Shown: piece after piece, positions 1,362-25,200 of the stretch
How positions within the stretch are numbered: position 1 is the first letter of the stretch
How the letters are laid out: every line of letters starts with the position of its first letter
Assembly (NCBI GenBank): GCA_963680875.1
Contig: OY804588.1
Coordinates: 75,106,829-75,170,828 of the forward strand
Direction of reading: 5' to 3'
From: Bathymodiolus brooksi
Taxonomy: Eukaryota > Mollusca > Bivalvia > Mytilida > Modiolidae
DNA: 64,000 nucleotides
Translations under genes and position numbers: made by a program
Notes under the pieces: model-generated
Told to the model about the DNA's origin: nothing
Database searches by the model: none
What the model saw: only the letters and a program-made list of their open reading frames with translations

Positions 1362-1483
1362 GTAAATGATATGATTAAAGAATGTCATGTGTAATTACCA
1401 TGATTGTATTCTGTATTAGAATGGCAGTGTTAAGTAGCTAGGTGCTATAAATACACTTCCACTAGTTGACATATTAGTGAGTG

Positions 1484-1880
1484 GGCATACATCGATTGTC
1501 GTTATCACAGAAGGTAGGGGATTCTATTATGGGTATTGAGAAGATTTACGTATGCTACGCAAACAGTAAATGGTGGTTTTACATAATGTCATTTTTTTCG
1601 GCTTGCTGGCTCCATTCATGTTAAATACCAAAAGATAAACATTCTAATGAAAGATATTTTTGTGAGTGATTGTTGTTTAATCTCAAATGTGTAAATTGTT
1701 AGCTATATCTTGATGAAAACAAGTTACATGAGATGAGAACGATATCTGCTTTATACTATACCAACACTCATGATTGGATATTTATTGCTATTTCACTGTG
1801 TGCCTAGCGGAGAAGTAACAAATTCCATTTTCATACTCGATTATTTGACTCGACCGGGGCTTGAATCTACCGAATTAAAA
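1484..1880 (+). repeat. Intronic spacer repeat, full-length copy 1
   Basis: About 400 bp beginning GGGCATACATCGATTGTCG and ending at GAATCTACCGAATT, directly before a 29-bp satellite array. It is the most diverged of three long copies (others 3200-3597 and 7268-7664); two shorter copies lie at 4333-4530 and 8266-8462. It is AT-rich and non-coding. Its constant position immediately 5' of the satellite suggests spacer and satellite move or amplify together. Confidence 0.75.
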
Positions 1881-3199
1881 CAAAACATGACTGATAGCAC
1901 ATTCTGGGAAAAAACATGATTGGTAGCGCATTCTGGGAAACACATGATTGGTAGCACATTCTGGGACAAACTATGATTGGCAGCACATTCTGGGAAAAAA
2001 ACATAATTGGCAGCAGCACATTCTGGGAAAAAAACATTATTGGCAGCACATTCTGGGAAAAAACATAATTGGCAGCAAATTCTGAGGGAAAAACATGACT
2101 GATAGCACATCTGGGAAAACCATGATTGGCAGCTCATCCTGGAAATGATTGACAGCATATTCTGGGAAAAACATTATTGACAGCACATTCTGGGAAAAAA
2201 CATGAGTAGCAGCACAATCTTGGAAAAAAACATAATTGGCAGCAAATTCTGTGGGAAAAACATGATTGGCAGCAAATTATGAGGGAAAAACATGACTGAT
2301 AGCACATCTGGGAAAACCATGATTGGCAGCACATCCTGGAAATGATTGACAGCACATTCTGGGAAAAACATGAATGACAGCACATTCTGGGAAAAAAACA
2401 TGAGTGACAGTATATTCTGGGATAAAAACATAATTGGCAGCAAATTCTGTGGGAAAAACATGATTGACAGCACATTCTGGGAAAAGAACATAATTGGCAG
2501 CAAATTCTGAGGGAAAAACATGACTGATAGCACATCTGGGAAAACCATGATTGGCAGCACATTCTGGGAAAAACATTATTGGCAGCAGCACATTCTGGGA
2601 AAAACCATGATTGGCAGCACATTCTGGGGAAAAAACATGATTGGCAGCACATCCTGGAAATGATTGACAGCACATTCTGGGAAAAACATGATTGGCAGCA
2701 CATTCTGAGAAAAAAAACATGAGTGGCAGCATATTCTGGGAAAAAACATAATTGGCAGCAAATTCTGTGGGAAAAACATGATTGGCAGCACATTCTGCGA
2801 AAAGAACATAATTGACCGCAAATTCTGAGGGAAAAACATGACTGATAGCATATCTGGGAAAACCATGATTGGCAGCACATTCTGGGAAAAAAACATTATT
2901 GGCAGCGGCACATTCTGGGAAACAAACATTATTGGCAGCACATTCTGGTAAAAACCATGATTGGCAGCACATTCTGGGAAAAAAACATGTTTAGCAACAC
3001 ATTCTAGGAAAAAAACCATGGTTGGTAGCACATTCTGGGGAAAAAACATGATTAGCAGCACATTCTGGCAAAAATAAACATGATAGGCAGGTGATTCTGT
3101 AAAAAAAAAATACGTGATTGCAACACATATTGAAAAAAACATGATTGCGAAACATTCGTATTCTGGGAAAAAACACGATTACAATATATTCTGTGTAAG
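1880..3199 (+). repeat. 29-bp satellite array a
   Basis: About 45 tandem units of roughly 29 bp built on ACATGATTGGCAGCACATTC followed by TGGGAAAAA. Variation is mainly in the A-run length and in a few alternating subtypes, such as one with GCAAATTCTGAGG and one with a shortened CACATCTGGG. It ends in degenerate units and a distinctive CACGATTACAATATATTC segment before the next spacer. The reverse complement lacks stop codons in all three frames, which produces long spurious Cys-rich ORFs. Confidence 0.92.
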
Positions 3200-3597
3200 T
3201 TTGCATACAGTGATTGTGGTTATCGCAGAAGGTAGGGGATTCTATTATGGGTATTGAGAAAATTTACGTATGCTACACAAACAGTAAATGGTGGTTTTAC
3301 ATAATGTAATTTTTTTCGGCTTGCTGGTTCCATTCATGTTAAATACCAAAAGACAAACATTCTAAAAAAAGAAACTTTTTTGAGTGATTGTTGTTTAATC
3401 TCAAATGTGCAAATTGTTAGCTATATCTTGATGAAAACAAGTTACATGAGATGAGAACGATATCTGCTTTATACTATACCAACACTCATGATTGGATATG
3501 TATTGCTAGTTCACTGTGTGCCTAGCGGAGAAGTAACAAATTCCAATTTCATATTCGATTATTTAACTCGACCGGGGTTTGAATCTACCGAATTGAA
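3200..3597 (+). repeat. Intronic spacer repeat, full-length copy 2
   Basis: Second long spacer, starting GCATACAGTGATTGTGG and ending at the CGACCGGGG...GAATCTACCGAATT segment. It differs from the copy at 7268-7664 by about one base but is more diverged from the copy at 1484. No open frame of note. Confidence 0.85.
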
Positions 3598-4335
3598 AAA
3601 AAACATGACTGAGAGCACATTCTGGGAAAAAACATGATTGGCAGCGCATTCTGGGAAAAACATGATTGGCAGCACATTCTGAGAAAAACCATGATTGGCA
3701 GCATATTCTGGGAAAAAAACATAATTGGCAGCAGCACATTCTGGGAAAAAACATGATTGGCAGCACATTCTGGAAAAAAACATGATTAGCAGCACATTCA
3801 TGGAGAAAACATGGCTGGCAGCACATTCTGGATAAAAAACATGATTAGCAGCACATTCTGGGAAAAAAACATGATTGGCAGATTCTGGAGGAAAAACATG
3901 ATGGACAGCAAATTCTGTGGGAAAAAACATGATTGGCAGCACATTTTGGGAAAAAACATAATTGGGAGCAAATTCTGAGGGAAAAACATGACTGATAGCA
4001 CATCTGGGAAAACCATGATTGGCAGCACATCCTGGAAATGATTGACAGCACATTCTGGGAAAAAAACATGAGTGTCAGCATATTATGGGAAAAAACATAA
4101 TTGGCAGCAAATTATGAGGGAAAACATGACTGATAGCACATCTGGGAAAACCATGATTGGCAGCACATCCTGGAAATGATTGACAGCACATTCTGGGAAA
4201 AAAAACACGAGTGACAGCATATTCTGGGAAAAAACATAATTGGCAGCAAATTCTGTGGGAAAAACATGATTGGCAGCACATTCTAGGAAAAGAATATAAT
4301 TGGCAGCAAATTCTGAGGGAAAAATATGACTGTTG
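3597..4335 (+). repeat. 29-bp satellite array b
   Basis: About 25 tandem units of the same 29-bp satellite as at 1880-3199. It contains an internal duplication of a block of about 135 bp (units near 3985-4060 resemble those near 4110-4190) that is absent from the paralogous array at 7665-8268. It ends AAAAATATGACTG before the short spacer. Confidence 0.9.
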
Positions 4336-4530
4336 GCATACAGCGATTGTAGTTATCGCAGAAGGTAGGGGAATGTATTATGGATATTGAGAAGATTTAG
4401 GTATGCTACACAAACAGTAAATGGTGGTTTTACATAATGTCATTTTTTTCGGCTTGCTGGCTCCATTCATGTTAAATACCAAAAGACAAACATTCTAAAA
4501 AAAGATATTTTTGTGAGTGATTGTTGTTTT
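4333..4530 (+). repeat. Short spacer repeat, copy 1
   Basis: About 200 bp matching the first half of the long spacer (CATACAGCGATTGTAG, then AGAAGGTAGGGGAATG and AAATGGTGGTTTTACATAATG). After GTGAGTGATTGTTGTTT it diverges into sequence flanking the 66-nt exon instead of reaching the satellite. This truncation distinguishes it from the long copies. Confidence 0.8.
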
Positions 4531-4734
4531 TTCTTACTGAAATTAGCTTTGTTACATTTTTTTGGATTTTGCATGGTTTTCTGTGAGACAGACACTTAAA
4601 AAGAATGCTACAATATGTTTTTATCACGAAGTTCTTTATTTGTCTTTACTTGTAAATCACATGACTGGGTTATTTCATATAATGCTTTCTGTAATTATAT
4701 AATAAAAATAAGAACGTACATTTGTTTCTTTCAG

Positions 4735-4800
4735 AAGGATTAGAGCTCGAAAATACCTCATCAGATGAAGGAAATAATTCATTCTTTGAGAGTGAAACGG
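4735..4800 (+). CDS. Putative exon 2, acidic Ser/Asn-rich, duplicated copy a
   Basis: A 66-nt segment lies between TTTCTTTCAG (ends 4734) and ACGG|GTAATA (donor begins 4801). Joined in phase 1 to the exon at 1221 it stays open and encodes about 22 residues including ELENTSSDEGNN and FFESET, an acidic Ser/Asn-rich linker with no recognised domain. Both ends are phase 1, so it can be included once, twice or not at all without shifting the frame. An identical copy lies at 8667-8732. Such a linker next to a zinc-finger segment is typical of disordered regions in nuclear proteins. Because the exon is short, the call rests on splice signals and phase consistency with its neighbours rather than on homology. 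Confidence 0.6.
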
Positions 4801-5214
4801 GTAATAATTTTACGAATAACTGATAAATACAGGAAATATAAAATATTGAAAACATTGTGATAATTTTGTATAACAAAATTACCTTTTGAAATAACCAAGT
4901 GTACAAACAAAATATAGTAACATTATCTACTGGTAGGATGGTAAGCGTCTGTCATGGCGTCTTTCATACAGAGTTACGTGACAAAAGGTCAAATATTCGT
5001 ATTCTGTTTGTAGTGTACCGTGGAGTACGTCTGACTTTTCTTTTATCGTGTCTGGCGTAACATACATTTATAAAATGAAATCCATTGACACAGTGAGATA
5101 AATATCTTTCTTAACACCTTTGGGTACTACTTAAAGATTTTAAAATACCGAGTGGTGTGTTATGATTTGTACTCGGTAATCTTCGAATCGAAAACTGTGA
5201 GCGTACCTGATAAA
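4801..5214. other. Unique intronic sequence after exon 2
   Basis: AT-rich and non-coding, with no RNA gene or repeat seen. It is duplicated with very few changes at 8733-9147 as part of the 4-kb tandem duplication. A 78-codon open stretch on the opposite strand across the exon is a shadow. Confidence 0.6.
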
Positions 5215-7265
5215 GGTGGGAAAAACATGATTGGCAGCACATTCTGCGAAAAACGTGATTGGCAGTGCATTCTGAGAAGAAACACATGAGTGGCAGCACA
5301 TTCTGGGAAAAACATGATTGGCAGCACATTCTTGGGAGAAAAACATGATTGACAGCACATTCTGGGAAAAAAACATGAGTGGCAGCACACTCGGGGAAAA
5401 AACATAATTGGCAGCAAATTATGTGGGAAAAACATGATTGGCAGCACATTCTAGAAAAAAACATGATTCGTAGCACATTCTGAGAAAGAATAATGAATGA
5501 CAGCACATCCTGGGGAAAAAACATAATTGGCAGCAAATCATGTGGGAAAAACATGATTGGCAGCACATTCTGGGAAAAAAATACATAATTAACAGCAAAT
5601 TCTGGGAGAAAAACATGACTGGCATCACATTCTGGGAAAAACATGATTGGCAGCATATTCTGGGAAAAAGAAACATGATGGGCAGCATACTCTGGGAAAA
5701 AACATAACTGATAGCACATTCTGGGAAAAAAACATAACTGATAGCACATTCTGGGAAAAAACATGATTGGCAGCACATTCTGGGAAAAACCATGATTGGC
5801 AGTACATTCTGGGAAAAAAACATGATTAGCAGCACATTCTGGGAAAAAAACATGGTTGGCAGCACATTCGTGGGAAAAAAACATGTTTAGCAGTATATTC
5901 TGGGAATAAACATGAGTGACAGCACATCATGGGGAAAACATGATTAGCAGCACATTCTGGGAAAAAACATAATTGACGCACACTCTGGGAGAAAAAAAAC
6001 ATGACTGATAGCACTTCTGGGAAAATCATGATTGGCAGCACATCCTGGGGAAAAAACATGATTGACAGCACATTCTGAGAAAAACCATGATTGGCAGCAC
6101 ATCCTGGGAAAAAAAACATGATTGACAGCACATTCTGGGAAAAACATGATTGGCAGCACATTCTTGGGAGAAAAACATGATTGACAGCACATTCTGGGAA
6201 AAACATGATTGACAGCACATTCTGGGAAAAACATGATTGGTAGCACATTTTGGGAAAAGATATATAATTGGCAGCAAATTCTGTGGGAAAAACATGATTG
6301 GCAGCACATTCTGGGAAAAAACATAATTGGCAGCAAATTCTTGGGGAAAAACATGACTGAAAGTACATTCTGGGAGGAAAACATGATTGGTAGCGCATTC
6401 CGAGAAAAACATGATTGACAGCATATTCTGGGAAAAACCATGATTGGCAGCACATTCTGGGGAAAATAACATGATTAGCAGTACATTCTGGGAAAAAAAC
6501 ATGGTTGGGAGCACATTCTGGGGAAAACATGATTAGCAGCACATTCTGGGAAAAGAACATAATTGGCAGCAAATTCTGAGGGAAAAACATGACTGATAGC
6601 ACATCTGGGAAAACCATGATTGGCAGCACATTCTGGGAAAAACATTATTGGCAGCAGCACATTCTGGGAAAAACCATGATTGGCAGCACATTCTGGGGAA
6701 AAACATGATTGGCAGCACATCCTGGAAATGATTGACAGCACATTCTGGGAAAAACATGATTGGCAGCACATTCTGAGAAAAAAAACATGAGTGGCAGCAT
6801 ATTCTGGGAAAAAACATAATTGGCAGCAAATTCTGTGGGAAAAACATGATTGGCAGCACATTCTGCGAAAAGAACATAATTGACAGCAAATTCTGAGGGA
6901 AAAACATGACTGATAGCACATCTGGGAAAACCATGATTGGCAGCACATTCTGGGAAAAAAACATTATTGGCAGCGGCACATTCTGGGAAACAAACATTAT
7001 TGGCAGCACATTCTGGGAAAAACCATGATTGGCAGCACATTCTGGGAAAAAAACATGTTTAGCAACACATTCTAGGAAAAAAACCATGGTTGGTAGCACA
7101 TTCTGGGGAAAAAACATGATTAGCAGCACATTCTGGCAAAAATAAACATGATAGGCAGGTGATTCTGTAAAAAAAAATACGTGATTGCAACACATATTGA
7201 AAAAAACATGATTGCGAAACATTCGTATTCTGGGAAAAAACACGATTACAATATATTCTGTGTAA
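5215..7265 (+). repeat. 29-bp satellite array c (crosses the duplication junction)
   Basis: About 70 units of the 29-bp satellite. Up to about 6540 it matches the array at 9148-10480; beyond that it matches 2475-3195, so the array contains the junction of the 4-kb tandem duplication. It ends in the CACGATTACAATATATTC terminal segment. Confidence 0.9.
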
Positions 7266-7267
7266 GT

Positions 7268-7664
7268 TTGCATACAGTGATTGTGGTTATCGCAGAAGGT
7301 AGGGGATTCTATTATGGGTATTGAGAAAATTTACGTATGCTACACAAACAGTAAATGGTGGTTTTACATAATGTAATTTTTTTCGGCTTGCTGGTTCCAT
7401 TCATGTTAAATACCAAAAGACAAACATTCTAAAAAAAGAAATTTTTTTGAGTGATTGTTGTTTAATCTCAAATGTGCAAATTGTTAGCTATATCTTGATG
7501 AAAACAAGTTACATGAGATGAGAACGATATCTGCTTTATACTATACCAACACTCATGATTGGATATGTATTGCTAGTTCACTGTGTGCCTAGCGGAGAAG
7601 TAACAAATTCCAATTTCATATTCGATTATTTAACTCGACCGGGGTTTGAATCTACCGAATTGAA
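7268..7664 (+). repeat. Intronic spacer repeat, full-length copy 3
   Basis: Nearly identical to 3200-3597 (one substitution noticed, C/T in the GAAACTTTT/GAAATTTTT segment), as expected for the second copy of the 4-kb duplication. Non-coding. Confidence 0.88.
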
Positions 7665-8268
7665 AAAAAACATGACTGAGAGCACATTCTGGGAAAAAAC
7701 ATGATTGGCAGCGCATTCTGGGAAAAACATGATTGGCAGCACATTCTGAGAAAAACCATGATTGGCAGCATATTCTGGGAAAAAAACATAATTGGCAGCA
7801 GCACATTCTGGGAAAAAACATGATTGGCAGCACATTCTGGAAAAAAACATGATTAGCAGCACATTCATGGAGAAAACATGGCTGGCAGCACATTCTGGAT
7901 AAAAAACATGATTAGCAGCACATTCTGGGAAAAAAACATGATTGGCAGCAGATTCTGGAGGAAAAACATGATTGACAGCAAATTCTGTGGGAAAAAACAT
8001 GATTGGCAGCACATTTTGGGAAAAAACATAATTGGGAGCAAATTCTGAGGGAAAAACATGACTGATAGCACATCTGGGAAAACCATGATTGGCAGCACAT
8101 CCTGGAAATGATTGACAGCACATTCTGGGAAAAAAAACACGAGTGACAGCATATTCTGGGAAAAAACATAATTGGCAGCAAATTCTGTGGGAAAAACATG
8201 ATTGGCAACACATTCTGGGAAAAGAATATAATTGGCAGCAAATTCTGAGGGAAAAATATGACTGTTGG
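7665..8268 (+). repeat. 29-bp satellite array d
   Basis: About 21 units of the 29-bp satellite, paralogous to 3597-4335 but shorter by about 135 bp because one block of units is missing (or was not yet duplicated). It ends AAAAATATGACTG before the short spacer. Confidence 0.9.
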
Positions 8269-8462
8269 CATACAGCGATTGTAGTTATCGCAGAAGATAG
8301 GGGAATGTATTATGGATATTGAGAAGATTTAGGTATGCTACACAAACAGTAAATGGTGGTTTTACATAATGTCATTTTTTTCGGCTTGCTGGCTCCATTC
8401 ATGTTAAATACCAAAAGACAAACATTCTAAGAAAAGATATTTTTGTGAGTGATTGTTGTTTT
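8266..8462 (+). repeat. Short spacer repeat, copy 2
   Basis: Paralogue of 4333-4530 within the second copy of the tandem duplication, with only a few substitutions (for example AGAAGATAGGGG for AGAAGGTAGGGG). It leads into the second copy of the 66-nt exon. Confidence 0.82.
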
Positions 8463-8666
8463 TTCTTACTGAAATTAGCTTTGTTACAATTTTTTGGATT
8501 TTGCATGGTTTTCTGTGAGACAGACACTTAAAAAGAATGCTACAATATGTTTTTATCACGAAGTTCTTTATTTGTCTTTACTTGTAAATCACATGACTGG
8601 GTTATTTCATATAATGCTTTCTGTAATTATATAATAAAAATAAGAACGTACATTTGTTTCTTTCAG

Positions 8667-8732
8667 AAGGATTAGAGCTCGAAAATACCTCATCAGATGA
8701 AGGAAATAATTCATTCTTTGAGAGTGAAACGG
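8667..8732 (+). CDS. Putative exon 2, duplicated copy b
   Basis: This 66-nt segment is identical base for base to 4735-4800, including the TTTCTTTCAG acceptor and the GGGTAATAATTTTACG donor region. It is phase 1 at both ends, so splicing exon copy a to copy b would insert the same 22 acidic residues twice in frame. It joins equally well to the zinc-finger exon at 10968 (split codon G|AC). Whether transcripts use one copy, either copy or both cannot be told from DNA. The absence of any change in 66 nt fits either very recent duplication or purifying selection; the flanks, with only about four changes in 675 bp, make recency sufficient. Confidence 0.55.
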
Positions 8733-9147
8733 GTAATAATTTTACGAATAACTGATAAATACAGGAAATATAAGATATTGAAAACATTGTGATAATTTTG
8801 TATAACAAAATTACCTTTTGAAATAACCAAGTGTACAAACAAAATATAGTAACATTATCTACTGGTAGGATGGTAAGCGTCTGTCATGGCGTCTTTCATA
8901 CAGAGTTACGTGACAAAAGGTCAAATATTCGTATTCTGTTTGTAGTGTACCGTGGAGTACGTCTGACTTTTCTTTTATCGTGTCTGGCGTAACATACATT
9001 TATAGAATGAAATCCATTGACACAGTGAGATAAATATCTTTCTTAACACCTTTGGGTACTACTTAAAGATTTTAAAATACCGAGTGGTGTGTTATGATTT
9101 GTACTCGGTAATCTTCGAATCGAAAACTGTGAGCGTACCTGATAAAG
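8733..9147. other. Unique intronic sequence after exon 2 copy b
   Basis: Second copy of 4801-5214, differing at a few positions (for example AAATATAAGATATTG for AAATATAAAATATTG). No coding or RNA feature seen. Confidence 0.6.
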
Positions 9148-10685
9148 GTGGGAAAAACATGATTGGCAGCATATTCTGCGAAAAACGTGATTGGCAGTGC
9201 ATTCTGAGAAAAAAAACATGAGTGGCAGCACATTCTGGGAAAAACATGATTGGCAGCACATTCTTGGGAGAAAAACATGATTGACAGCACATTCTGGGAA
9301 AAAAAACATGAGTGGCAGCACACTCGGGGAAAAAACATAATTGGCAGCAAATTATGTGGGAAAAACATGATTGGCAGCACATTCTAGAAAAAAACATGAT
9401 TCGTAGCACATTCTGAGAAAGAATAATGAATGACAGCACATCCTGGGAAAAAAACATAATTGGCAGCAAATCATGTGGGAAAAACATGATTGGCAGCACA
9501 TTCTGGGAAAAAAATACATAATTAACAGCAAATTCTGGGGGAAAAACATGACTGGCAGCACATTCTGGGAAAAACCATGATTGGCAGCATATTCTGGGAA
9601 AAAGAAACATGATGGGCAGCATACTCTGGGAAAAAACATAACTGATAGCACATTCTGGGAAAAAAACATAACTGATAGCACATTCTGGGAAAAAACATGA
9701 TTGGCAGCACATTCTGGGAAAAACGATGATTGGCAGTACATTCTGGGAAAAAAACATGATTAGCAGCACATTCTGGGAAAAAAACATGGTTGGCAGCACA
9801 TTCGTGGGGAAAAAACATGTTTAGCAGTATATTCTGGGAATAAACATGAGTGACAGCACATCATGGGAAAAACATGATTAGCAGCACATTCTGGGAAAAA
9901 ACATAATTGACCGCACACTCTGGGAAAAAAAAAACATGACTGATAGCACTTCTGGGAAAATCATGATTGGCAGCACATCCTGGGGAAAAAACATGATTGA
10001 CAGCACATTCTGAGAAAAACCATGATTGGCAGCACATCCTGGGAAAAAAAACATGATTGACAGCACATTCTGGGAAAAACATGATTGGCAGCACATTCTT
10101 GGGAGAAAAACATGATTGACAGCACATTCTGGGAAAAACATGATTGACAGCACATTCTGGGAAAAACATGATTGGTAGCACATTTTGGGAAAAGATATAT
10201 AATTGGCAGCAAATTCTGTGGGAAAAACATGATTGGCAGCACATTCTGGGAAAAAACATAATTGGCAGCAAATTCTTGGGGAAAAACATGACTGAAAGTA
10301 CATTCTGGGAGGAAAACATGATTGGTAGCACATTCCGGGAAAAACATGATTGACAGCATATTCTGGGAAAAACCATGATTGGCAGCACATTCTGGGGAAA
10401 ATAACATGATTAGCAGTACATTCTGGGAAAAAAACATGGTTGGGAGCACATTCTGGGGAAAACATGATTTGCAGCACATTCTGGGAAAAAAACATGGTTG
10501 GCAGCATATTCTGGGGAAAAAAATATGATTGGCATTTTATTCTGTAAAAAAACATGATTGCACCACATATTGAAAAAAAAAATGATTGCGACACATTCTA
10601 GAAAAAAATGATTGACAGAACATTCGGGAAAAACATGATTACAATGTATTCTGGGAAAAAACACGATTGCAATATATTCTGTGTA
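9148..10685 (+). repeat. 29-bp satellite array e
   Basis: About 53 units of the 29-bp satellite, matching 5215-6540 up to about 10480, then ending in degenerate units and the CACGATTGCAATATATTC terminal segment. It is the last array of this family; none is seen after 10685. Confidence 0.9.
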
Positions 10686-10967
10686 AGTTAGTTAAGGATT
10701 AACATTGACACCTTGCCCAAAAAGCCCCAATAAGAAGAATAGCATATCCAATAAAATACAAATGCTGCATCCACAGGGAGGGTAGAATGGTTTTTAATAA
10801 TCACAGTCAAATGTATTTTTTGGAAAATCGATATCAACACGATTATCAGAAATATTGGAAAGCAACCTTGTATCATTTTCAATTAAAACGTATCTGCGGA
10901 TATCATTTTAAACTATTGTCTGGTTCTGGTTACTAGTAAAATACATGTACTAAATAATTATTTTTAG
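10686..10967. other. Intron segment before zinc-finger exon
   Basis: AT-rich non-coding sequence ending in TAATTATTTTTAG, a usable 3' splice site at 10967. An opposite-strand open stretch at 10688-10882 has no recognisable features. Confidence 0.5.
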
Positions 10968-11092
10968 ACGAGGAAGAGGTACAAGATAGCCATACATGTG
11001 GAGGATGTGGAGAGGCCTATGCTACTTTAGATCTGTTTGTTAATCATAAAATAGTGTGCAAATCGAAGAAAAAAACAACTGAACATGGGAAG
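10968..11092 (+). CDS. Putative exon 3 encoding a C2HC zinc finger
   Basis: A 125-nt open segment between TATTTTTAG (ends 10967) and GGGAAG|GTAAAA (donor begins 11093). It enters in phase 1, matching the upstream exons, and leaves in phase 0. An acidic start (DEEEVQDS) is followed by a zinc-finger core HTCGGCGEAYATLD ending in FVNHKIVC. The spacing is Cys-X2-Cys-X12-His-X3-Cys, with Tyr four residues after the second Cys and Phe three before the His, which is the classical C2H2 pattern with Cys as last ligand. A basic tail (KSKKK) follows. Single fingers of this kind bind nucleic acid or protein partners in the nucleus. Ligand spacing and splice signals together make this, with the 12404 exon, the firmest coding call in the window. 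The parent gene family is not identified. Confidence 0.77.
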
Positions 11093-11348
11093 GTAAAACA
11101 TTAATATTAAATCATAAGATAATTAATGAAGTCATACAAATATGTATTCCTTACTCCACAGAACTCCACTCAGGGTAGATTATTGCTATGAAAATATGAC
11201 CTGTGGTAAAATCTTATGGGCTAAGTGTGGTAACTTTATCTTTGTTCATATTCAGCTAATATTTTGAATTGTTTATAAATTACTTCTTTTAAGCATCTGT
11301 ATGTTTATGTTTAATGAAACATAATATTTAGAAATTATCTAATTTCAG

Positions 11349-11385
11349 CCAAATTCATCCAGCAAAGGCGTACATACAAAACAAG
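11349..11385 (+). CDS. Putative exon 4, small linker exon
   Basis: A 37-nt segment between TCTAATTTCAG (ends 11348) and ACAAG|GTATAC (donor begins 11386). Entered in phase 0 from the zinc-finger exon it encodes PNSSSKGVHTKQ and leaves in phase 1, exactly the phase needed for the exon at 12404. It has no domain and reads as a Ser-rich linker. A microexon this short could be a chance AG...GT pair. The phase conversion from 0 to 1, without which the zinc-finger exon and the 12404 exon would not join in frame, argues that it is real. Confidence 0.55.
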
Positions 11386-11915
11386 GTATACAACTAATAT
11401 GCTAAGATTACTAATGTAGTATATATCCATACGAAATAAGACTATTCCTCAAATCTTTTTCAAAATACTACATAAACCATAACAAGCACAAATTGACAAC
11501 ATCACAATAAACCTTTTGCTGAAAACGTCATAGATTGGTCATTGGCAATGGTGTCGTTCATTTACGACACAAATTCGGATCTTTGTAGTACATATTCGTT
11601 CTGGAAATAAAATAGTATGTGTCGTCCCGTGGTTAATTTACGACTTTACCATGGGTTAGTCTCATATTTAATCCTTTCTTCACAGAACTCCACTCTCCAA
11701 TAAACAATGAGCTGACATAAATTAATTATTATTTTTACAATTATTGAGGTATGAATTATTGTCATAAATGAATCCCCTACTCAAGATATATTATCTCAGA
11801 GAGAATAATAACTTTATTCCTGTACAGATATTTATTTCTCACTGTCATTTCCTTATATTATCCTGATGAATAAATGGTTGCACTTGGAAAGTTTCACGTA
11901 GCCACAATGACCGTC
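11386..11915. other. Intron sequence, no feature seen
   Basis: AT-rich and non-coding. A 14-bp word, CACAGAACTCCACT, near 11683 also occurs in the preceding intron near 11157, a minor dispersed similarity. No RNA gene or transposon ends recognised. Confidence 0.5.
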
Positions 11916-12090
11916 GAGTAATACATATTACTTTAATTGTTTGGACAGGATATATGTGTCTTTAGAGTAATACATATTACATTAAGGATTGAGACAGGGT
12001 GCATGTGTTCTTTAGAGTAATACATATTACAGTAAGGGTTGAGACATGGTGTATGCATTCTTAGAGTAATAAGTATTACAGTAACTGTTA
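11916..12090 (+). repeat. 49-50-bp tandem repeat with small palindrome
   Basis: GAGTAATACATATTAC occurs at 11916, 11965 and 12015, and a variant (GAGTAATAAGTATTAC) at 12064, a period of 49-50 bp over four copies. The core GTAATA-CA-TATTAC is an inverted repeat with 6-bp arms. Each is followed by a GTTGGACAGG/ATTGAGACAGG-like segment. No function known. Confidence 0.8.
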
Positions 12091-12403
12091 GGGTGTGTGC
12101 TATATTTTATTTTTTACTGGCATAAATATACCACATACTTCCTGTATAAATAATTTCAAAATCTGATGTTAACACAATCTAAGGACATGCTACTGTATGA
12201 TTCTTGATTCAGATTTGGCACGACATACAACTCGTCTAAGCTTAATGCATTTCTAATACCAAATACTGCACAACACTAACGAAGATAAATGGCGATATGT
12301 GTTGTATATGGCAACTAAAAATAGAAATGATAATAGGACAACGAAATCTGAAACATTAAGTAAATATGCTCAGAATATTAAACTCAGTTTTTGCCTTTAA
12401 CAG

Positions 12404-12676
12404 TTAGAATGGTATTTGATGGAAATGATAACGTTGTTCGCAGAATGAATCAGATTCAACCACAGAAATTGTCATCCAAATCCATTACAACAGATTTCAC
12501 AGAAAAGGGTAGTTTAGTCCTGTGGACTAAAATGTCGTCATCTGTTATAAAAAAGAAAGAATCTTTCATGAAAGAAGTTGACGAGTTTGTTTTCAAACTG
12601 ATGGACAAGTGTCCAGTGGAGACTGATGAGAAAACAACACTGACAGTGAAAATCGATGTAATAGAGAACTTGGAAG
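12404..12676 (+). CDS. Putative exon 5; its 3' end is a satellite unit
   Basis: A 273-nt open segment between TTTGCCTTTAACAG (ends 12403) and TTGGAAG|GTTAGT (donor begins 12677), phase 1 at both ends and in frame with the 11349 exon through a split GTT codon. It encodes about 91 residues, including RMVFDGNDNVVRRM, GSLVLWTKMSSS, KEVDEFVFKLMDK and the end VKIDVIENLE. The mix of hydrophobic strands and charged residues suggests a folded domain; I do not recognise the family. If unspliced, translation stops at once at TAG (12679-12681). The last 25 nt (12652-12676) and donor belong to the 47-bp satellite that fills the rest of the window, so about eight C-terminal residues of this exon are encoded by a satellite unit. 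The next exon is not in this window, which implies an intron over 51 kb long. Confidence 0.75.
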
Positions 12677-12838
12677 GTTAGTTGTCCTATGCTTTGATAT
12701 CTATGTTACAGAGGACTTGGAACGTTAGTTGTCCTATATTTTGTTATCGATGTTATAGAGGACTCGGAAGGTTAGTTGTCCTATATTTTGCTATCGATGT
12801 TATATAGGACTTGGAAGGTTAGTTGTCCTATGCTTTGC
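12652..12838 (+). repeat. 47-bp satellite, gene-proximal segment
   Basis: Four units, with GTTAG starts at 12677, 12724, 12771 and 12818, exactly 47 bp apart. The first unit overlaps the exon. The segment is cut by the hAT element at 12839; beyond it the array continues in register after subtracting 1,535 bp (GTTAG at 14400). Confidence 0.95.
12671..12682 (+). other. 5' splice donor of exon 5, shared with the satellite
   Basis: TTGGAAG|GTTAGT. The GT is followed by T at +3 and by the favourable A, G, T at +4 to +6. Most satellite units downstream repeat the same AG|GTTAGT. The immediately following unit has AAC|GTTAG at 12721-12728, so its -1 G is lost and it is a weaker competitor. Confidence 0.6.
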
Positions 12839-12853
12839 CAGTGTTCCAGCTAG
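12839..12853 (+). repeat. hAT left terminal inverted repeat
   Basis: CAGTGTTCCAGCTAG, a perfect inverted match to 14353-14367. CAGTG is a common start for hAT elements. Confidence 0.9.
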
Positions 12854-12865
12854 ACCAAAATAGAG

Positions 12866-13058
12866 GGGTGCTGTGCCCCGCCCCCGAAATTGTTCACCCC
12901 TCTGCCCTTTTTAGTCATCATGCTGTGCCCCGCCCCCGAAATTGTTCACCCCTCTGCCCTTTTTAGTCATCCCTTGCACCCCTCTGCCCTTTCTATCCTT
13001 CTCTTGCACCCCTCTGCCCTTTCTATCCTTCTCTTGCACCCCTCTGCCCTTTTCATGC
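12866..13058 (+). repeat. C-rich subterminal minisatellite within the hAT element
   Basis: A 52-bp block beginning CTGTGCCCCGCCCCCGAAAT occurs at 12871 and again at 12923. It is followed by nearly three copies of a 30-bp unit built on TTGCACCCCTCTGCCCTTTC. This is the only markedly GC-rich stretch in the window. Both strands read open through part of it, giving spurious repetitive ORFs (12890-13129 plus, 12911-13114 minus). Confidence 0.85.
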
Positions 13059-13746
13059 AGTACATGAATCCCAAATGTGTACGCTTGTGTTGTCCACTCG
13101 TGACATTGTCTCAAAACCTTTCCAATTAATTTCTAATTAAATGTGTACAGGTTTAATGCTTTTAACAACAATCACCTGTTGTCCGCTAATTAGTAATTTC
13201 CTGCCCTCACCAAGTGATCAGTATATGACTTTGGTAATCCTGAACAGTGCAATATGTCCTTAGGTCATTGTAAAAAATTGCCGAGACATATAGACCAATT
13301 TGATTTAAACATCTAAACAGCCCTTTTAAGGGCTACCAAAATATTTCAAAAACATTCTAAATTGTTGTTGCAAAAATCACGAGGATTGATGAAAAAAAAT
13401 TAGGTCGTAAAATTATTATCTCCCCTGCCATTTCTCCATATTTAAGTAATATAGTTTTAATTTTTCTAATTGCTTTCATATTATTTAAACATTCAAATAA
13501 TCATATACCTGCACAATTAAAAACAAAAGACTTTGTTATTCATCTTTGTTCTCCATTTGGACCAGTCTTTATTGATATATGCTTGCAATACTAATTAGAT
13601 CCAACACAATATAAACATTACTGGAACAATTCTGGTACATAATGCATTGTTGCCAAGTTCAAGTGATCCAACATTTAAACATTTATTAAAAATTATTAAA
13701 ATCTCGCACATACCTTTATATATATCCACTTCTGTGGAAGTACCTA
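13059..13746. other. hAT element interior, eroded
   Basis: AT-rich sequence inside the transposon with stops in all frames. It presumably replaces or derives from the missing body of the transposase gene. I cannot identify N-terminal BED-finger or catalytic regions. Confidence 0.5.
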
Positions 13747-14004
13747 GTGACCTACTTGAATGAACTATTTCAGTCAGTAGATCACAAAGACAATAATGTT
13801 TCTTCAATGTATCCACTTGTCTCCAAATTGTACAGCATTGCTGTCATACAGCCCTTGAGCACTGCAGAAGTTGAGATACTTTTCTCTCAAGTTGCCTTAA
13901 TCAAAACCAGCCACAGAGCTAACATTAAAAATGAGACACTTTCCAAAATTTTGAACATTAAGTACAACTGTGATCTGTACACTCTCAAAATTATACATGT
14001 ATGA
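13747..14004 (+). pseudogene. hAT transposase remnant, C-terminal dimerisation (hATC) domain
   Basis: An 85-codon open stretch with no ATG start (first codon GTG) carries the C-terminal hATC signature: YPLVSKLYSIAVIQPLSTAE at residues 22-41, continuing to VEILFSQVALIKT at 42-54 and RANIKNETLSKIL at 57-69. The order hydrophobic segment, S-T-A-E-x-E, x-F-S, I-K-T, R, E-T-L is the dimerisation-domain pattern I know from hAT transposases, especially those related to ZNF862/KIAA1586-like proteins. The stretch ends at TGA shortly after, as expected for the transposase C-terminus. The rest of the transposase, with the catalytic D-D-E residues, is missing, so it cannot encode an active enzyme. It lies in the same orientation as the host gene. 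Confidence 0.78.
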
Positions 14005-14352
14005 GACAAGTGTGTACATGCCTTTTTTATACACAAAAACAGAAGACTTGTAAACACAGTGTGACTTTTATTTTAGTTAAAATTGTATCTGGAACATTCA
14101 TAACACTAATATTCATTTTAGCACATGTCTTTTTATTGATCTGCAGATTTTAACGTACATTTCTGTACATATGTAATAAAATATATATAAACAATGAGTC
14201 ATGTAGATGCATTGATGCACAGAGCTGAAAATGTAGTGCTGAAAGACATTTTTAATATTAAGTAACCGAAAATAACTATATTGCCCTTTTTCATAGTTTT
14301 TGACGTGCTGAAGTGCCCTTTTTCCAAAGTCGCGCCCCTCCATTTTCAATTC
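14005..14352. other. hAT element 3' region
   Basis: AT-rich non-coding end of the transposon. Subterminal TTGCCCTTTTTC and GTGCCCTTTTTCC words echo the CTGCCCTTTTT words near the left end, as expected for transposase-binding subterminal repeats. Confidence 0.55.
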
Positions 14353-14367
14353 CTAGCTGGAACACTG
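14353..14367 (-). repeat. hAT right terminal inverted repeat
   Basis: CTAGCTGGAACACTG, the reverse complement of 12839-12853. It is directly followed by the CTTTGC target-site copy and resumed satellite. Confidence 0.9.
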
Positions 14368-17300
14368 CTTTGCTATCTATGCTATAGAGGACTTGGAAGG
14401 TTAGTTGTCCTATTATTCTTTGTTATCTATGTTATAGAGGACTTGGAAGGTTAGTTGTCCTATATTTTGTTATCGATGTTATAGAGGACTTGGAAGGTTA
14501 GTTGTCCTACACTTTGTTATCTATGTTATAGAGAACTTGGAGGGTTAGTTGTGCTATACTTTGCTATCTATGTTATGGAGGACTTGGAGGGTTAGTTTTC
14601 CTATACTTTGTTATTTATGTTATAGAGAACGTGAAAGGTTAGTTGTCCTATACTTTGTTGTCTATGTTATAGAGGACTTGGAAGGTTAGTTTTCCTATAC
14701 TTTGTTATCGATGTTATAGAGGACTTGGAAGGTTAATTGTCCTGTACTTTTGTATCTATGTTATAGAGAACTTCGAGGGTTATTTGTTCTATACTTTGCT
14801 ATATATGTTATAGAGGACTTGGAGGGTTAGTTGTCCTATACTTTGTTATCGATGTTATTGAGGATTTGGAAGGTTAGTTGTCCTATAGTTTTCTATCTAT
14901 GTAATAGAGAACCTGGAAGGTTAGTTGTCCTATATTTTTCTATCTATGTTATAGAGAACTTGGAAGGTTAGTTGTCCTATACTTTGTTATCTATGTTATA
15001 GATGCCTTGGAGGGTTAGTTGTCTTATACTTTGCTATCTATGTTATATAGGACTTGGAAGGATTGTTGTGCTATACCTTGCTATCGATGTTATAGAGGAC
15101 TTGGAAGGATTGTTGTCATATACTTTGTTATCTATCTTATTGAGGACTTGGAAGGTTAGTTGTCCTATATTTTGTTATTGATCTTATAGAGGACTTGGAG
15201 GGTTAGTTGTCCTATATTTTGTTTTCGATGCTGTAGAGGACTTGGAATGTTAGTTGTCCTATGCTTTTCTATCTATGTTATAGTGAACTTGGAAGGTTAG
15301 TTGTCCTATATTTTGTTATTTATGATATAGAGGACTTGGAGGGTTACTTGTCCTATATTTTGTTATCGATGTTATAGAAGACTTGGAAGGTTAGTTGTCC
15401 TATACTTTGTTATTTATGTTATAGAGGACTTGGAAGGTTAGTTGTCCTATATTTTGTTATCGATGTTATAGAGGACTTGGAATGTTAATTTTCCTATACT
15501 TTGTTATTTATGTTATAGAGGACTTGAAAGGTTAGTTGTCCTATACTTTGTTACCGATGTTGTAGAGGACTTGGAGGGTTAGTTGTCCTATATTTTTCTA
15601 TCTATGTTATAGAGAACTTGGAAGGTTAGTTGTCCTATAATTTTCTATCTATGTTATACAGAACTTGGAAGGTTAGTTGTCCTATACTTTGTTATCTATG
15701 TAATAGAGGTCTTGGAGGGTTAGTTGTCCTATACTTTGCTATCTATGTTATAGAGAACTTGGAAGGTTAGTTGTTCTATATTTTGTTATCTATGTAATAG
15801 AGGTCTTGGAGGGTGAGTTGTCCTATACTTTGCTATCTATGTTATACAGAACTTGGAAGGTTAGTTGTCCTATACTTTGTTATCTATGTAATAGAGGTCT
15901 TGGAGGGTCAGTTGTCCTATACTTTGTTATCGATGTTATAGAGAACTTGAAAGGTTAGTTGTCCTATACTTTTCTATCTATGTTATAGAGAACTTGGAAG
16001 GATTGTTGTCCTATACTTTGTTATCTATCTTATTGATGACTTGGAAGGATTGTTGTCCTATACTTTGTTATCTATCTTATTGATGACTTGGAAGGTTAGT
16101 TGTTTTATACTTTGTTATCGATGTTATAGAGGACTTGGAAGGATTGTTGTCCTATACATTATTATCGATGTTATAGAGGATTTGGAAGGATTGTTGCCGT
16201 ATACTTTGCTATCAATGTTATAGAGGACTTGGAGGGTTAGTTGTCCTATGCGTTGTTATCTATGCTATAGAGGAATTGAAAGGATTGTTGTCCTACACTT
16301 TGTTATCTATGTTATGGAGGACTTGGAAGGTTAGTTGTCCTATACTTTGTTATCTATGTTATAGAGGACTTGGAAGGTTAGTTGTCCTATACTTTGTTAT
16401 CTATGTTATAGAGGACTTGGAAGGTTAGTTGTCCTATACTTTGTTATCTATGTTATAGAGGACTTGGAGGGTTAGTTGTCCTATACTTTGTTATCGATGT
16501 TATAGAGGACTTGGAGGGTTAGTTGTCCTATACTTTGTTATCTATGTTATAGAGTAATTGGAAGGATTGTTGTACTATACTTTGTTATCTATGTTATAGA
16601 GGACTTGGAAGGATAGTTGTGCTATAATTTGTTATCTGTGTTATAGAGTAATTGGAAGGATTGTTGTGATATACGTTGTTTTCTATGTAATAGAGGACTT
16701 GGAAGGATAATTGTGCTATACGTTGTTATCGATGCTATAGAGGACTTGGAGGGTTACTTGTTCTATCATTTGTTATATATGTAATAGAGGACTTGGAAGG
16801 ATAGTTGTGCTATAATTTGCTATCTGTGTTATAGAGGACTTGGAAGGTTAGTTGTCGTATACTTTTTTATCTATGTTATAGAGGACTTGGAAGGTTAGTT
16901 GTCCTATACTTTTCTATCTATGTTATAGATAAATTGGAAGGTTAGTTGTCCTACACTTTGTTATCTATGTTATAGAGGACTTGGAATGTTAATTGTCCTG
17001 TATTTTTTTATCTATGTTATAGAGAACCTGGAGGGTTAGTTGTCATATACTTTGCTATCGATGTTATAGAGGACTTGGAGGGTTAGTTGTCCTATACTTT
17101 GTTATCGATGTTATTGAGGACTTGGAGGGTTAGTTGTCCTATTCTTTGTTATCTATGTTATAGAGGACTTGGAGGGTTAGTTGTCCGATACTTTATTATC
17201 GATGTTATAGAGGATCTGGAGCGTTAGTTGTCCTATACTTTGTTATCTATGTTATAGGGGACTTGGAGGGTTAGTTTTCCAATATTTTGTAATCGATGTT

Positions 17301-17699
17301 ATAGAGGACTTGGAAGGTTAATTGTCCTGTACTTTTGTATCTATGTTATAGAGAACTTCGAGGTTTATTTGTCGTAAACTTTGCTATCTATGTTATAGAG
17401 GACTTGGAGGGTTAGTTCTCCTATACTTTGTTATCGATGTTATTGAGGACTTGGAAGGTTAGTTGTCCTATAGTTTTCTATCTATGTTATAGAGAACCTG
17501 GAAGGTTAGTTGTCCTATATTTTTCTATCTATGTTATAGAGAACTTGGAAGGTTAGTTGTCCTATACTTTGCTATCTATGTTATAGATGACTTGGAAGGA
17601 TTGTTTTGCTATACCTTGTTATCGATGTTATAGAGGACTTGGAAGGATTGTTGTCCTATACTTTGTTATCTATCTTATTAAGGACTTGGAAGGTTAGTT

Positions 17700-20600
17700 G
17701 TCCTATATTTTGTTATTGATGCTATAGAGGACTTGGAAGGTTTGTTGTCCTATGCTTTTCTATCTATGTTATAGTGGACTTGGAAGTTTAGTTGTCCTAT
17801 ATTATGTTATTTATGTTATAGAGGACTTGGAGGGTTAGGTGTCCTATATTTTGTTATCGATGTTATAGAGGACTTGGAAGGTTAGTTGTTCTATACTTTG
17901 TTATCTATGTTATAGAGTAATTGGAAGGATTGTTGTACTATACTTTGTTATCTATGTAATAGAGGACTTGGAAGGATAGTTGTGCTATAATTTGTTATCT
18001 GTGTTATAGAGTAATTGGAAGGATTGTTGTGATATACGTTGTTATCTATGTAATAGAGGACTTGGAAGGATAATTGTGGTATACGTTGTTATCGATGCTA
18101 TAGAGGACTTGGAGGGTTACTTGTTCTATACTTTGTTATCTATGTAATAGAGGACTTGGAAGGATAGTTGTGCTATAATTTGCTATCTGTGTTATAGAGG
18201 ACTTGGAAGGTTAGTTGTCGTATACTTTTTTATCTATGTTATAGAGGACTTGGAAGGTTAGTTGTCCTATACTTTTCTATCTATGTTATAGATAAATTGG
18301 AAGGTTAGTTGTCCTATACTTTGTTATCTATGTTATAGAGAACTTGGAAGGTTAGTTTTCCTATACTTTGTTATCGATGTTATAGAGGACTTGGAATGTT
18401 AATTGTCCTGTACTTTTTTATCTATGTTATAGAGAACCTGGAGGGTTAGTTGTCATATACTTTGCTATCGATGTTATAGAGGACTTGGAGGGTTAGTTGT
18501 CCTATACTTTGTTATCGATGTTATTGAGGATATGAAAGGTTAATTGTCCTGTACTTTTTTATCTATGTTATAGAGAACTTGGAAGGTTAGTTGTCCTATT
18601 CTTTGTTATCTATGTTATAGAGGACTTGGAGGGTTAGTTGTCCTATACTTTATTATCGATGTTATAGAGGATCTGGAGGGTTAGTTGTCCTATACTTTGT
18701 TATCTATGTTATAAGGGACTTGGAGGGTTAGTTTTCCAATATTTTGTTATCGATGTTATAGAGGACTTGGAAGGTTAATTGTCCTGTACTTTTGTATCTA
18801 TGTTATAGAGAACTTCGAGGGTTATTTGTCGTAAACTTTGCTATCTATGTTATAGAGGACTTGGAGGGTTAGTTCTCCTATACTTTGTTATCGATGTTAT
18901 TGAGGACTTGGAAGGTTAGTTGTCCTATTGTTTTCTATCTATGTTATAGAGAACCTGGAAGGTTAGTTGTCCTATATTTTTCTATCTATGCTATAGAGAA
19001 CTTGGAAGGTTAGTTGTCCTATAATTTGCTATCTATGTTATAGATGACTTAAAAGGATTGTTGTGCTATACCTTGTTATCGATGTTATAGAGGACTTGGA
19101 AGGATTGTTGTCCTATACTTTGTTATCTATCTTATTGAGGACTTGGAAGGTTAGTTGTCCTATATTTTGTTATTGATCTTATAGAAGACTTGGAGGGTTA
19201 GTTGTCCTATATTTTGTTATCGATGCTATAGAGGACTTGGAAGGTTTGTTGTCCTATGCTTTTCTATCTATGTTATAGTGGACTTGGAAGGTTAGTTGTC
19301 CTATATTATGTTATTTATGTTATAGAGGACTTGGAGGGTTAGGTGTCCTATATTTTGTTATCGATGTTATAGAGGACTTGGAAGGTTAGCTGTTCTATAC
19401 TTTGTTACCGATGTTATAGAGGACTTGGAAGGATAATTGTCCTATGCTTTGTTATCGATGCTATAGAGGACTTGGAGGGTTACTTGTCCTATACTTTTCT
19501 ATCTATGTTATAGAGAACTTGGAAGGTTAGTTGTCCTAAAATTTTCTATCTATGTTATACAGAACTTGGAAGGTTAGTTGTCCTATATTTTGTTATCTAT
19601 GTAATAGAGGTCTTGGAGGGTTAGTTGTCCTATATTTTGTTATCGATGCTATAGAGGACTTGGAAGGTTTGTTGTCCTATGCTTTTCTATCTATGTTATA
19701 GTGGACTTGGAAGTTTAGTTGTCCTATATTATGTTATTTATGTTATAGAGGACTTGGAGGGTTAGGTGTCCTATATTTTGTTATTGATGTTATAGAGGAC
19801 TTGGAAGGTTAGTTGTTCTATACTTTGTTATCTATGTTATAGAGTAATTGGAAGGATTGTTGTACTATACTTTGTTATCTATGTAATATAGGACTTGGAA
19901 GGATAGTTGTGCTATAATTTGTTATCTGTGTTATAGAGTAATTGGAAGGATTGTTGTGATATACGTTGTTATCTATGTAATAGAAGACTTGGAAGGATAA
20001 TTGTGGTATACGTTGTTATCGATGCTATAGAGGACTTGGAGGGTTACTTGTTCTATACTTTGTTATCTATGTAATAGAGGACTTGGAAGGATAGTTGTGC
20101 TATAATTTGCTATCTGTGTTATAGAGGACTTGGAAGGTTAGTTGTCGTATACTTTTTTATCTATGTTATAGAGGACTTGGAAGGTTAGTTGTCCTATACT
20201 TTTCTATCTATGTTATAGATAAATTGGAAGGTTAGTTGTCCTATACTTTGTTATCTATGTTATAGAGGACTTGGAAGGTTAGTTTTCCTATACTTTGTTA
20301 TCGATGTTATAGAGGACTTGGAATGTTAATTGTCCTGTACTTTTTTATCTATGTTATAGAGAACCTGGAGGGTTAGTTGTCATATACTTTGCTATCGATG
20401 TTATAGAGGACTTGGAGGGTTAGTTGTCCTATACTTTGTTATCGATGTTATTGAGGACATGAAAGGTTAATTGTCCTGTACTTTTTTATCTATGTTATAG
20501 AGAACTTGGAAGGTTAGTTGTCCTATTCTTTGTTATCTATGTTATAGAGGACTTGGAGGGTTAGTTGTCCTATACTTTATTATCGATGTTATAGAGGATC

Positions 20601-22255: not shown

Positions 22256-25200
22256 GTTGTCCTATATTATGTTATTTATGTTATAGAGGACTTGGAGGGT
22301 TAGGTGTCCTATATTTTGTTATCGATGTTATAGAGGACTTGGAAGGTTAGTTGTTCTATACTTTGTTACCGATGTTATAGGGGACTTGGAAGGATAATTG
22401 TCCTATGCTTTGTTATCGATGTTATAGAAGACTTGGAGGGTTACTTGTCCTATACTTTTCTATCTATGTTATAGAGAACTTGGAAGGTTAGTTGTCCTAA
22501 AATTTTCTATCTATGTTATACAGAACTTGGAAGGTTAGTTGTCCTCTATTTTGTTATCTATGTAATAGAGGTCTTGGAGGGTTAGTTGTCCTATACTTTG
22601 CTATCTATGTTATAGAGAACTTGGAGGGTTAGTTGTCCTATACTTTTCTATCTATGTTATAGAGAACTTGGAAGGTTAGTTGTCCTATACTTTGTTATAT
22701 ATGTTATAGAGGACTTGGAGGGTTAGTTGTCTTATACTTTGTTATCTATGTTATATAGGACTTGGAAGGATTGTTGTGCTATACCTTGTTATCGATGTTA
22801 TAGAGGACTTGGAAGGATTGTTGTCCTATTCTTTGTTATCTATCTTATTGATGACTTGGAAGGTTAGTTGTCTTATACCTTGTTATACATGTTATAGAGG
22901 ACTTGGAAGGATTGTTGTCCTATACTTTATTATCGATGTTATAGAGGATTTGGAAGGATTGTTGCCGTATACTTTGCTATCAATGTAATAGAGGACTTGG
23001 AGGGTTAGTTGTCCTATACGTTGTTATCTATGCTATAGAGGAATTGAAAGGATTGTTGTCCTACACTTTGTTATTTATGTTATGGAGGACTTGGAAGGTT
23101 AGTTATCCTATACTTTGTTATCTATGTTATAGAGGACTAGGAAGGTTAGTTGTCCTATACTTTGTTATCTCTGTTATAGAGTAATTGGAAGGATTGTTGT
23201 ATGATACTTTGTTATCTATGTAATAGAGGACTTGGAAGGATAGTTGTGCTATAATTTGCTATCTGTGTTATAGAGTAATTGGAAGGATTGCTGTGATATA
23301 CGTCGTTATCTATGTAATAGAGGACTTGGAAGGATAATTGTGCTATACTTTGTTATCGATGTTATAGAGGACTTGGAGGGTTAGTTGTCCTATACTTTGT
23401 TATCTATGTAATAGAGGACTTGGAAGGATAGTTGTGCTATAATTTGCTATCTGTGTTGTAGAGGACTTGGAAGGTTAGTTGTCGTATAATTTTTTATCTA
23501 TGTTATAGAGAACTTGGAAGGTTAGTTGTCCTATACTTTTCTATCTATGTTATAGATAAATTGGAAGGTTAGTTGTCCTATGCTTTGTTAATTATGTTAT
23601 AGAGGACTTGGAAGGTTAGTTGTCCTACACTTTGTTATCTATGTTGTAGAGGACTTGGAGGGTTAGTTGTGCTATATTTTGTTATCGATGTTATAGAGGA
23701 CTTGGAAGGTGAGTTGTCCTATACTTTGTTATCGATGTTATAGAGAACTTGGAAGGATTGTTGTACTATACCTTGTTATCGATGTTTTAGAGGACTTGGA
23801 AGGATTGTTGTCCTATATTTTGTTATTGATCTTATAGAGGACTGGAAGGTTAGTTGTCCTATATTTTGTTTTCGATGCTATAGAGGACTTGGAAGGTTAG
23901 TTGTCCTATGCTTTTCTATCTATGTTATAGTGAACTTGGAAGGTTAGTTGTCCTATGTTTCGTTATTTATGCTATAGAGGACTAGGAGGGTTACTTGTCC
24001 TATATTTTGTTATCGATGTTATAGAGGACTTGGAAGGTTAGTTGTCCTATACTTTGTTATCTATGTTATAGAGGACTTGGAGGGTTAGTTGTCCTATACT
24101 TTGTTATCGATGTTATAGAGGACTTGGAGGGTTAGTTGTCCTATACTTTGTTATCTATGTTATAGAGTAATTGGAAGGATTGTTGTACTATACTTTGTTA
24201 TCCATGTAATAGAGGACTTGGAAGGATAGTTGTGCTATAATTTGTTATCTGTGTTATAGAGTAATTGGAAGGATTGTTGTGCTATACGTTGTTATACATG
24301 TTATAGAGGACTTGGAGGGTTAGTTGTTCTATACTTTGTTATCTATGTAATAGAGGACTTGGAAGGATAGTTGTGCTATAATTTGCTATCTGTGTTATAG
24401 AGGACTTGGAAGGTTAGTTGTCGTATACTTTTTTATCTATGTTATAGAGAACTTGGAAGGTTAGTTGTCCTATACTCTTCTATCTATGTTATAGATAAAT
24501 TGGAAGGTTAGTTGTCCTACACTTTGTTATCTATGTTATAGAGGACTTGGAAGGTTAGTTTTCCAATACTTTGTTATCGATGTTATAGAGGACTTGGAAT
24601 GTTAATTGTCCTGTACTTTATATCTATGTTATAGAGAACCTGGAGTGTTAGTTGTCATATACTTTGCTATCGATGTTATAGAGGACTTAGAAGGTTAGTT
24701 GTCCTATAATTTTCTATCTATGTTATACAGAACCTGGAAGGTTAATTGTCCTGTACTTTGTTCTCGATGTTATATAGGACTTGGAAGGTTAGTTGTCCAA
24801 TACTTTATTATCGATGTTATAGAGGATCTGGAGGGTTAGTTGTCCTATACTTTGTTATCTATGTTATAGGAGACTTGGAGGGTTAGTTGTCCTATACTTT
24901 GTTCTCGATGTTATATAGGACTTAGAAGAATAGTTGTCCTATACTTTATTATCGATGTTATAGAGGATCTGGAGGGTTAGTTGTTCTATACTTTGTTATC
25001 TATGTTATAGGGGACTTGGAGGGTTAGTTTTCCAATATTTTGTTATCGATGTTATAGAGGACTTGGAAGGTTAATTGTCCTGTACTTTTGTATCTATGTT
25101 ATAGAGAACTTCGAGGGTTATTTGTCGTAAACTTTGCTATTTATGTTATAGAGGACTTGCAGGGTTATTTCTCCTATACTTTGTTATCGATGTTATTGAG

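Follow-up and report, generated by a model that had tools for sequence, protein, structure and literature searches.

How does a satellite array come to begin inside a coding exon? This question is raised by a 64,000-nt stretch of the genome of the bivalve Bathymodiolus brooksi (contig OY804588.1, positions 75,106,829 to 75,170,828, forward strand; hereafter the window), in which a 47-bp tandem repeat takes in the last 25 nt of a predicted coding exon (12404-12676) and continues for more than 50 kb. The first repeat unit spans the predicted exon-intron boundary at 12676/12677. Tandem repeats that cross exon-intron boundaries are known from lancelets as 'mirages' (PMC3087553, PMC3902484, as described in the available parts of these reports). 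We see an even chance that the array is a giant mirage that was founded by the exon-intron junction, and this origin appears likelier to us than that the gene recruited an existing satellite. The birth of a satellite is seldom caught with the founder still attached.

Tandem Repeats Finder (TRF) and a scan with the array consensus gave an array with a sharp left edge at 12652 that runs to the end of the window at 64000. It comprises about 1,050 units of 47 bp and is broken once, by a 1,529-bp hAT-like element. At a threshold of at least 30 of 47 positions matching the array consensus, the scan counted 1,052 units, with four to the left of the element and 1,048 to the right. TRF reported 4.0 copies (87% matches) for the left part (12652-12838, plus strand) and 1057.7 copies for 14368-64000, where the remaining array extends on the plus strand from 14374 and runs off the window. 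These counts agree with the sequence-only reading, which had described a satellite of more than 1,000 copies and had recognised the last 25 nt of the exon with the following bases as a 47-bp unit. The exact spacing of the units was also confirmed, with the first four starting at 12652, 12699, 12746 and 12793 and matching the consensus at 42, 44, 43 and 42 of 47 positions. Mean unit identity to the consensus over the whole array is 0.912. The base at 12839, counted by the scan as the last of unit 4, already belongs to the inserted element.

No similarity to the repeat was found left of 12652 (12 of 47 matches in the preceding 47 bp and 5 of 24 in the last 24 nt), and the left edge is therefore sharp. 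Close relatives of the unit were not found elsewhere: the best 47-mer in 1-12630 had 25 matches on the plus strand and 28 on the minus strand, the best in 12850-14350 (plus strand only) had 25, and one letter-shuffled control sequence gave a best match of 27. An older half-repeat inside the unit was not seen (282 of 400 shuffles scored equally well or better), so a single 47-bp duplication would suffice. A 28-base word from the unit had no matches in prokaryote and viral contig collections, as expected of animal sequence, and the RNA fold of the array edge was no more stable than those of shuffles (z = 0.10).

We rejected an array end at 12838, because an insertion accounts for the break between 12838 and 14374. 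The inserted element (12839-14367, plus strand) has 15-bp perfect terminal inverted repeats (CAGTGTTCCAGCTAG) and is flanked by target-site copies CTTTGC at 12833-12838 and 14368-14373, its ends having been read by eye. A frame at 13690-14004 matched Dimer_Tnp_hAT (E = 4.7e-07, 30 bits versus a cut-off of 21.4), identifying a C-terminal transposase remnant, and the element holds two tandem repeats (52 and 30 bp) in its interior. hAT elements usually generate target copies of 8 bp; since the copy here is 6 bp, we use the label 'hAT-like'. Without the element and one target copy, the register of the units is preserved, i.e. the 46 bases at 12793-12838 and base 14374 make up a full unit and the next starts at 14375. 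The array was therefore continuous from 12652 before the insertion.

Unit 1 (12652-12698, plus strand) is made up of 25 exonic nt and 22 nt past the predicted splice donor. Its left edge falls between codons AAA and ATC of the exon frame, so the exon ends with eight codons (IDVIENLE) and one base (G) of unit 1. The predicted 5′ splice site (AAG/GTTAGT, with GTTAGT at 12677-12682, plus strand) scored 8.43 on a vertebrate-like position table. On the same table, the donors of the three exons predicted upstream scored 8.65, 7.03 and 4.55, and any other donor site in exon 12404-12676 scored at most 3.6. We infer splicing at 12676/12677; an in-frame TAG at 12679-12681 (plus strand), where the open frame ends, would be in use only without this donor. 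Beyond the inserted element, GT is kept at the donor position in 752 of the 1,048 units, and 402 of the 1,048 score at least as high as unit 1. The donor is at full strength in units 3 and 4 and is weakened to 4.09 in unit 2, by a change at the last exon-like base that is seen in 1 of the 1,048 other units. Units with GGATTG instead of GGTTAG, in which the donor is lost, occur in every binned part of 14375-64000 (A27 in 276 and T29 in 203 of 1,048 units).

As a prediction, the exon that carries the array edge (273 nt, plus strand, phase 1-1, acceptor TTTAACAG, open frame 12382-12681) is well supported because of its open frame, the matching phases over four exons and its best donor at 12676. 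The chance of 90 open codons in a given frame is ∼0.0008 under a first-order model of the non-repeat DNA around it, and the four predicted exons give 192 open codons, in phase at all three internal junctions.

We propose, at slightly less than an even chance for the account as a whole, that the exon end and its splice donor founded a >50-kb satellite at their own locus, with unit 1 pinned by selection on the protein and the ∼1,000 downstream copies forming an intron. In this process, a 47-bp segment consisting of the last 25 nt of the exon and the first 22 nt of the intron would have been duplicated in tandem. Unit 1, on the exon side, would have been held fixed because it encodes IDVIENLE of the protein and provides the donor. 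The downstream copies, intronic and without coding constraint, could then have multiplied via unequal exchange to more than 50 kb. The exon-proximal donor would be used, and the array, including its ∼750 GT-bearing copies, would be removed as an intron, with the downstream exon lying past the window.

Several results are consistent with this junction as the founder, and we infer that the exon preceded the array. The sharp start of the array falls between two codons of a frame-consistent exon, and the sole good donor of the exon sits in unit 1. A leftover native exon end was not visible, with no GT scoring above 3.6 from 12404 to 12651, although this is not watertight since an accepted upstream donor scores just 4.55. 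In 5,670 bp of non-repeat plus strand, 7 of 325 GTs scored at least 8.43, including the real donor at 1361, which corresponds to ∼0.0012 such sites per bp. By this measure, a 47-bp unit of unrelated origin would be expected to carry a donor of this quality on the plus strand ∼6% of the time, whereas a junction-derived unit would always do so.

The variation among units is also like that of satellite DNA, with a homogenised interior that contains near-identical blocks and a more divergent edge. Nearest-neighbour identity was 0.975 for the 45 units that directly follow the insertion versus 0.996 in the remainder. The best matches of units 1-4 in the rest of the array were only 43, 45, 45 and 43 of 47, as expected for an edge that is not homogenised with the interior. 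The units had been said to read IDVIEDLE where the exon reads IDVIENLE; indeed, IDVIEDLE is the commonest peptide in the exon frame (frame 1; 196 of 1,048 units), followed by IYVIEDLE (169) and IYVIENLE (155). The peptide of the exon itself, IDVIENLE, is found in 15 of the 1,048 units and its exact 25-nt end in none (best 24 of 25). The exon's A9 is present in 78 units, one of which has the exon's G4 and one the exon's A16. As A9 so seldom occurs together with either, it probably arose separately, as a synonymous change.

Other observations are neutral or weigh against the junction as founder. Identity to the consensus shows no trend from one end of the array to the other (0.900-0.923 per bin), and a second divergent stretch at 22375-26374 has a nearest-neighbour identity of 0.982, the same as 14375-18374. 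The high nearest-neighbour identity of the interior is partly due to large recent duplications, and ordinary satellites likewise develop divergent edges. Unit 1 and the consensus disagree at 5 of 47 positions. Two bases of the exon, G4 (Asp) and A16 (Asn), are each carried by a minority of the units (31% and 26%), which means that descent of the array from the exon is not required. In the consensus, two of the three unit frames reach the donor without a stop, and in-frame recruitment would therefore not be improbable once a satellite was present. Finally, an AlphaFold model of the exon peptide, made from the single sequence without an alignment, is too poor to tell if the final eight residues complete a fold (mean pLDDT, the predicted local distance difference test, of 58.8 overall and 46 for residues 81-90).

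The sequence-only reading had offered two origins, the junction as founder or the recruitment of a satellite. The pair was fair and neither is proved, but it was incomplete, and we added intron gain by AGGT duplication and a terminal exon that ends at the in-frame TAG. Recruitment survives best among the alternatives and is, in our view, unlikely. An existing 47-bp satellite would have entered the gene by insertion or rearrangement and removed or displaced the exon end, and unit 1 would have become the new exon end and donor. In agreement with such an event, the alleles of unit 1 also vary inside the array (G4 31%, A16 26%, G40 8%), the consensus unit is open up to the donor in two of three frames, and homology is absent left of the edge, as at a breakpoint. 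However, recruitment requires that the exon was broken, that its native end and donor were lost, and that the satellite by chance brought a good donor (∼6%).

Intron gain is improbable. Here, a wholly exonic 47-bp segment with the proto-splice site GGAAG/GTTAG would have been duplicated, the first AG/GT becoming a donor and a later copy an acceptor, and the array would be a new intron with the same repeat site at both ends. The GT position is preserved in most units (752 of 1,048), and the available text of PMC3443670 accepts that introns can arise when AGGT segments are duplicated in tandem. Similarly, human introns with a length that is a multiple of the surrounding repeat are enriched 8.4-fold in that of PMC10809524. 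As an acceptor, however, the consensus AG before GTTAG has 9 of 20 upstream pyrimidines compared with 11 to 15 at the predicted acceptors of the gene (the first of them measured a base off), which makes it only somewhat weaker. Use of this AG would also return the frame to LEG and then TAG, such that the array must precede the old stop and 3′ untranslated region.

We consider it no more probable that the exon is terminal or truncated, i.e. that no splicing occurs at 12676, the protein ends with IDVIENLEG at the TAG, and the satellite is located within or past the 3′ end of the gene. The frame indeed closes at 12681, and six AATAAA/ATTAAA signals lie in the inserted element, from 13136 to 14175. 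These first poly(A)-like signals 3′ of the TAG, however, sit in a later insertion, the donor of unit 1 is on a par with those upstream (8.43 versus 8.65, 7.03 and 4.55), and in-frame stops shortly inside introns are ordinary. Moreover, in the almost 50 kb of array to the right of the insertion, the sense strand has only 2 AATAAA and no ATTAAA, with 0 AGTAAA and 4 TATAAA; the other strand has 28 AATAAA, 0 ATTAAA, 3 AGTAAA and 20 TATAAA. The scarcity of signals on the sense strand is due to unit composition and is no evidence of selection, and it would at least not impede transcription through the array.

An assembly error, in which gene and satellite would not really be neighbours or the array would have been given a wrong length, is very improbable: the array does contain a near-perfect duplication with a period of 10,211 bp, and assemblers err at such places, but units 1-4 are in register with the following units across the later transposon insertion and the edge units bear private changes, which makes the junction at 12652 look genuine and old. 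The duplication (40558-61000) includes an exact run of 8,360 bp (40558-48917 versus 50769-59128), shows 2 mismatches in a comparison of 10,400 bp that starts at 40501, and is either a very recent event or an assembly artefact.

The three upstream exons of the predicted gene, whose donor scores are given above in order, all lie on the plus strand. The first (1221-1361, phase 1-1, acceptor TTGCAG, donor AAG/GTAAAT) joins the frame of the second (10968-11092, phase 1-0), which has a C2H2-like zinc finger (Pfam zf-C2H2, E = 0.0077, 17.1 bits, under the curated cut-off of 25.2). The third is a 37-nt exon (11349-11385, phase 0-1). For exon 12404-12676 itself, Pfam gave no family, a PDB sequence search with the peptide returned a single match (E = 1.1), and 0 of 233 Foldseek matches to the peptide model reached E 0.001 or better; we base no conclusion on these results. 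The exon pattern matched 8 stretches in viral and 81 in prokaryote contigs, none of which was confirmed as a relative, as expected for an animal gene. Neither Rfam on 1-20000 nor a tRNA scan of the window gave matches. The helix-loop-strand pattern of the exon (...LTVKID...) may resemble a domain of invertebrate immune-type proteins, which is no more than a lead.

Other tandem repeats occur in and near the predicted gene. The intron between its first two predicted exons is mostly a ∼30-bp minisatellite (1882-10681; AAAACATGATTGGCAGCACATTCTGGGAA) that contains large repeated blocks, of which 3746-6710 is 95% identical to 7665-10640. A further minisatellite of the gene, with 3.4 copies of a 49-bp repeat (11916-12084), lies in the intron directly before exon 12404. 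At 4-524 there are 3.6 copies of a 136-bp tandem repeat (TTCAATGGATTTTCACCAAACTTGG...), which may resemble a bivalve repeat.

If the exon is the founder, the locus fixes where the array started and the reason that one edge cannot move, and it poses the question of how the spliceosome picks one donor over ∼750 copies that keep GT. Such an origin would link mirages to true satellite DNA, extending the lancelet mirages to satellite scale and, with a bivalve host, to another phylum. The sequence-only reading knew of no described satellite with this origin, which is too strong, since mirages and a satellite from a gene intron are already published. Intron gain from AGGT duplication and repeat-unit introns are likewise in the literature. 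Among the matches listed in the open-licence literature, none was a satellite-size array starting in a coding exon, which does not prove that none is in print.

The mirages are closest in anatomy. In the available parts of the lancelet reports, they occur in Adh3, the globins BflGb6 and BflGb9, troponin C (TnC) and PGBD5, with units of 10-160 bp and 2 to 7 copies where numbers are given, and regular splicing is reported to be undisturbed in Adh3, globin and TnC (PMC3087553, PMC3902484). As in mirages, the unit described here spans a predicted exon-intron boundary and the splice signals are repeated. The likeness extends to single cases in the same text: the boundary units of the BflGb6 mirage are left out of homogenisation (PMC3087553, PMC3902484), as units at the edge of this array appear to be, and the first repeat of the PGBD5 mirage adjoins the 5′ splice site (PMC3902484), as unit 1 does. 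Unlike the mirages, the array has ∼1,050 copies that span more than 50 kb; low copy number is a trait of the described examples and does not belong to the mirage definition. Also related, on the portions available, are introns that arose by tandem genomic duplication of AGGT segments (PMC3443670) and the dual-specific splice sites of the tandem-repeat genes UBC and VCX3A, reported with repeat-unit introns in human genes (PMC10809524). These share with our locus the repeated AG/GT at an exon border, but UBC and VCX3A hold coding repeats in short arrays, and ours is a long array with stops. The CapA satellite of New World monkeys is, as proposed for ours, traced to part of a single-copy gene, in its case an intron of NOS1AP (PMC7210261, PMC8210747). 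According to the accessible text of those papers, CapA has a unit of ∼1,500 bp, is intronic only and makes up ∼5% of the Sapajus apella genome. By contrast, coding sequence and a splice site would form part of the unit here, which occupies one locus within the window. Together, these comparisons place an array with a predicted splice donor in its first unit as mirage-like in anatomy and satellite-like in scale.
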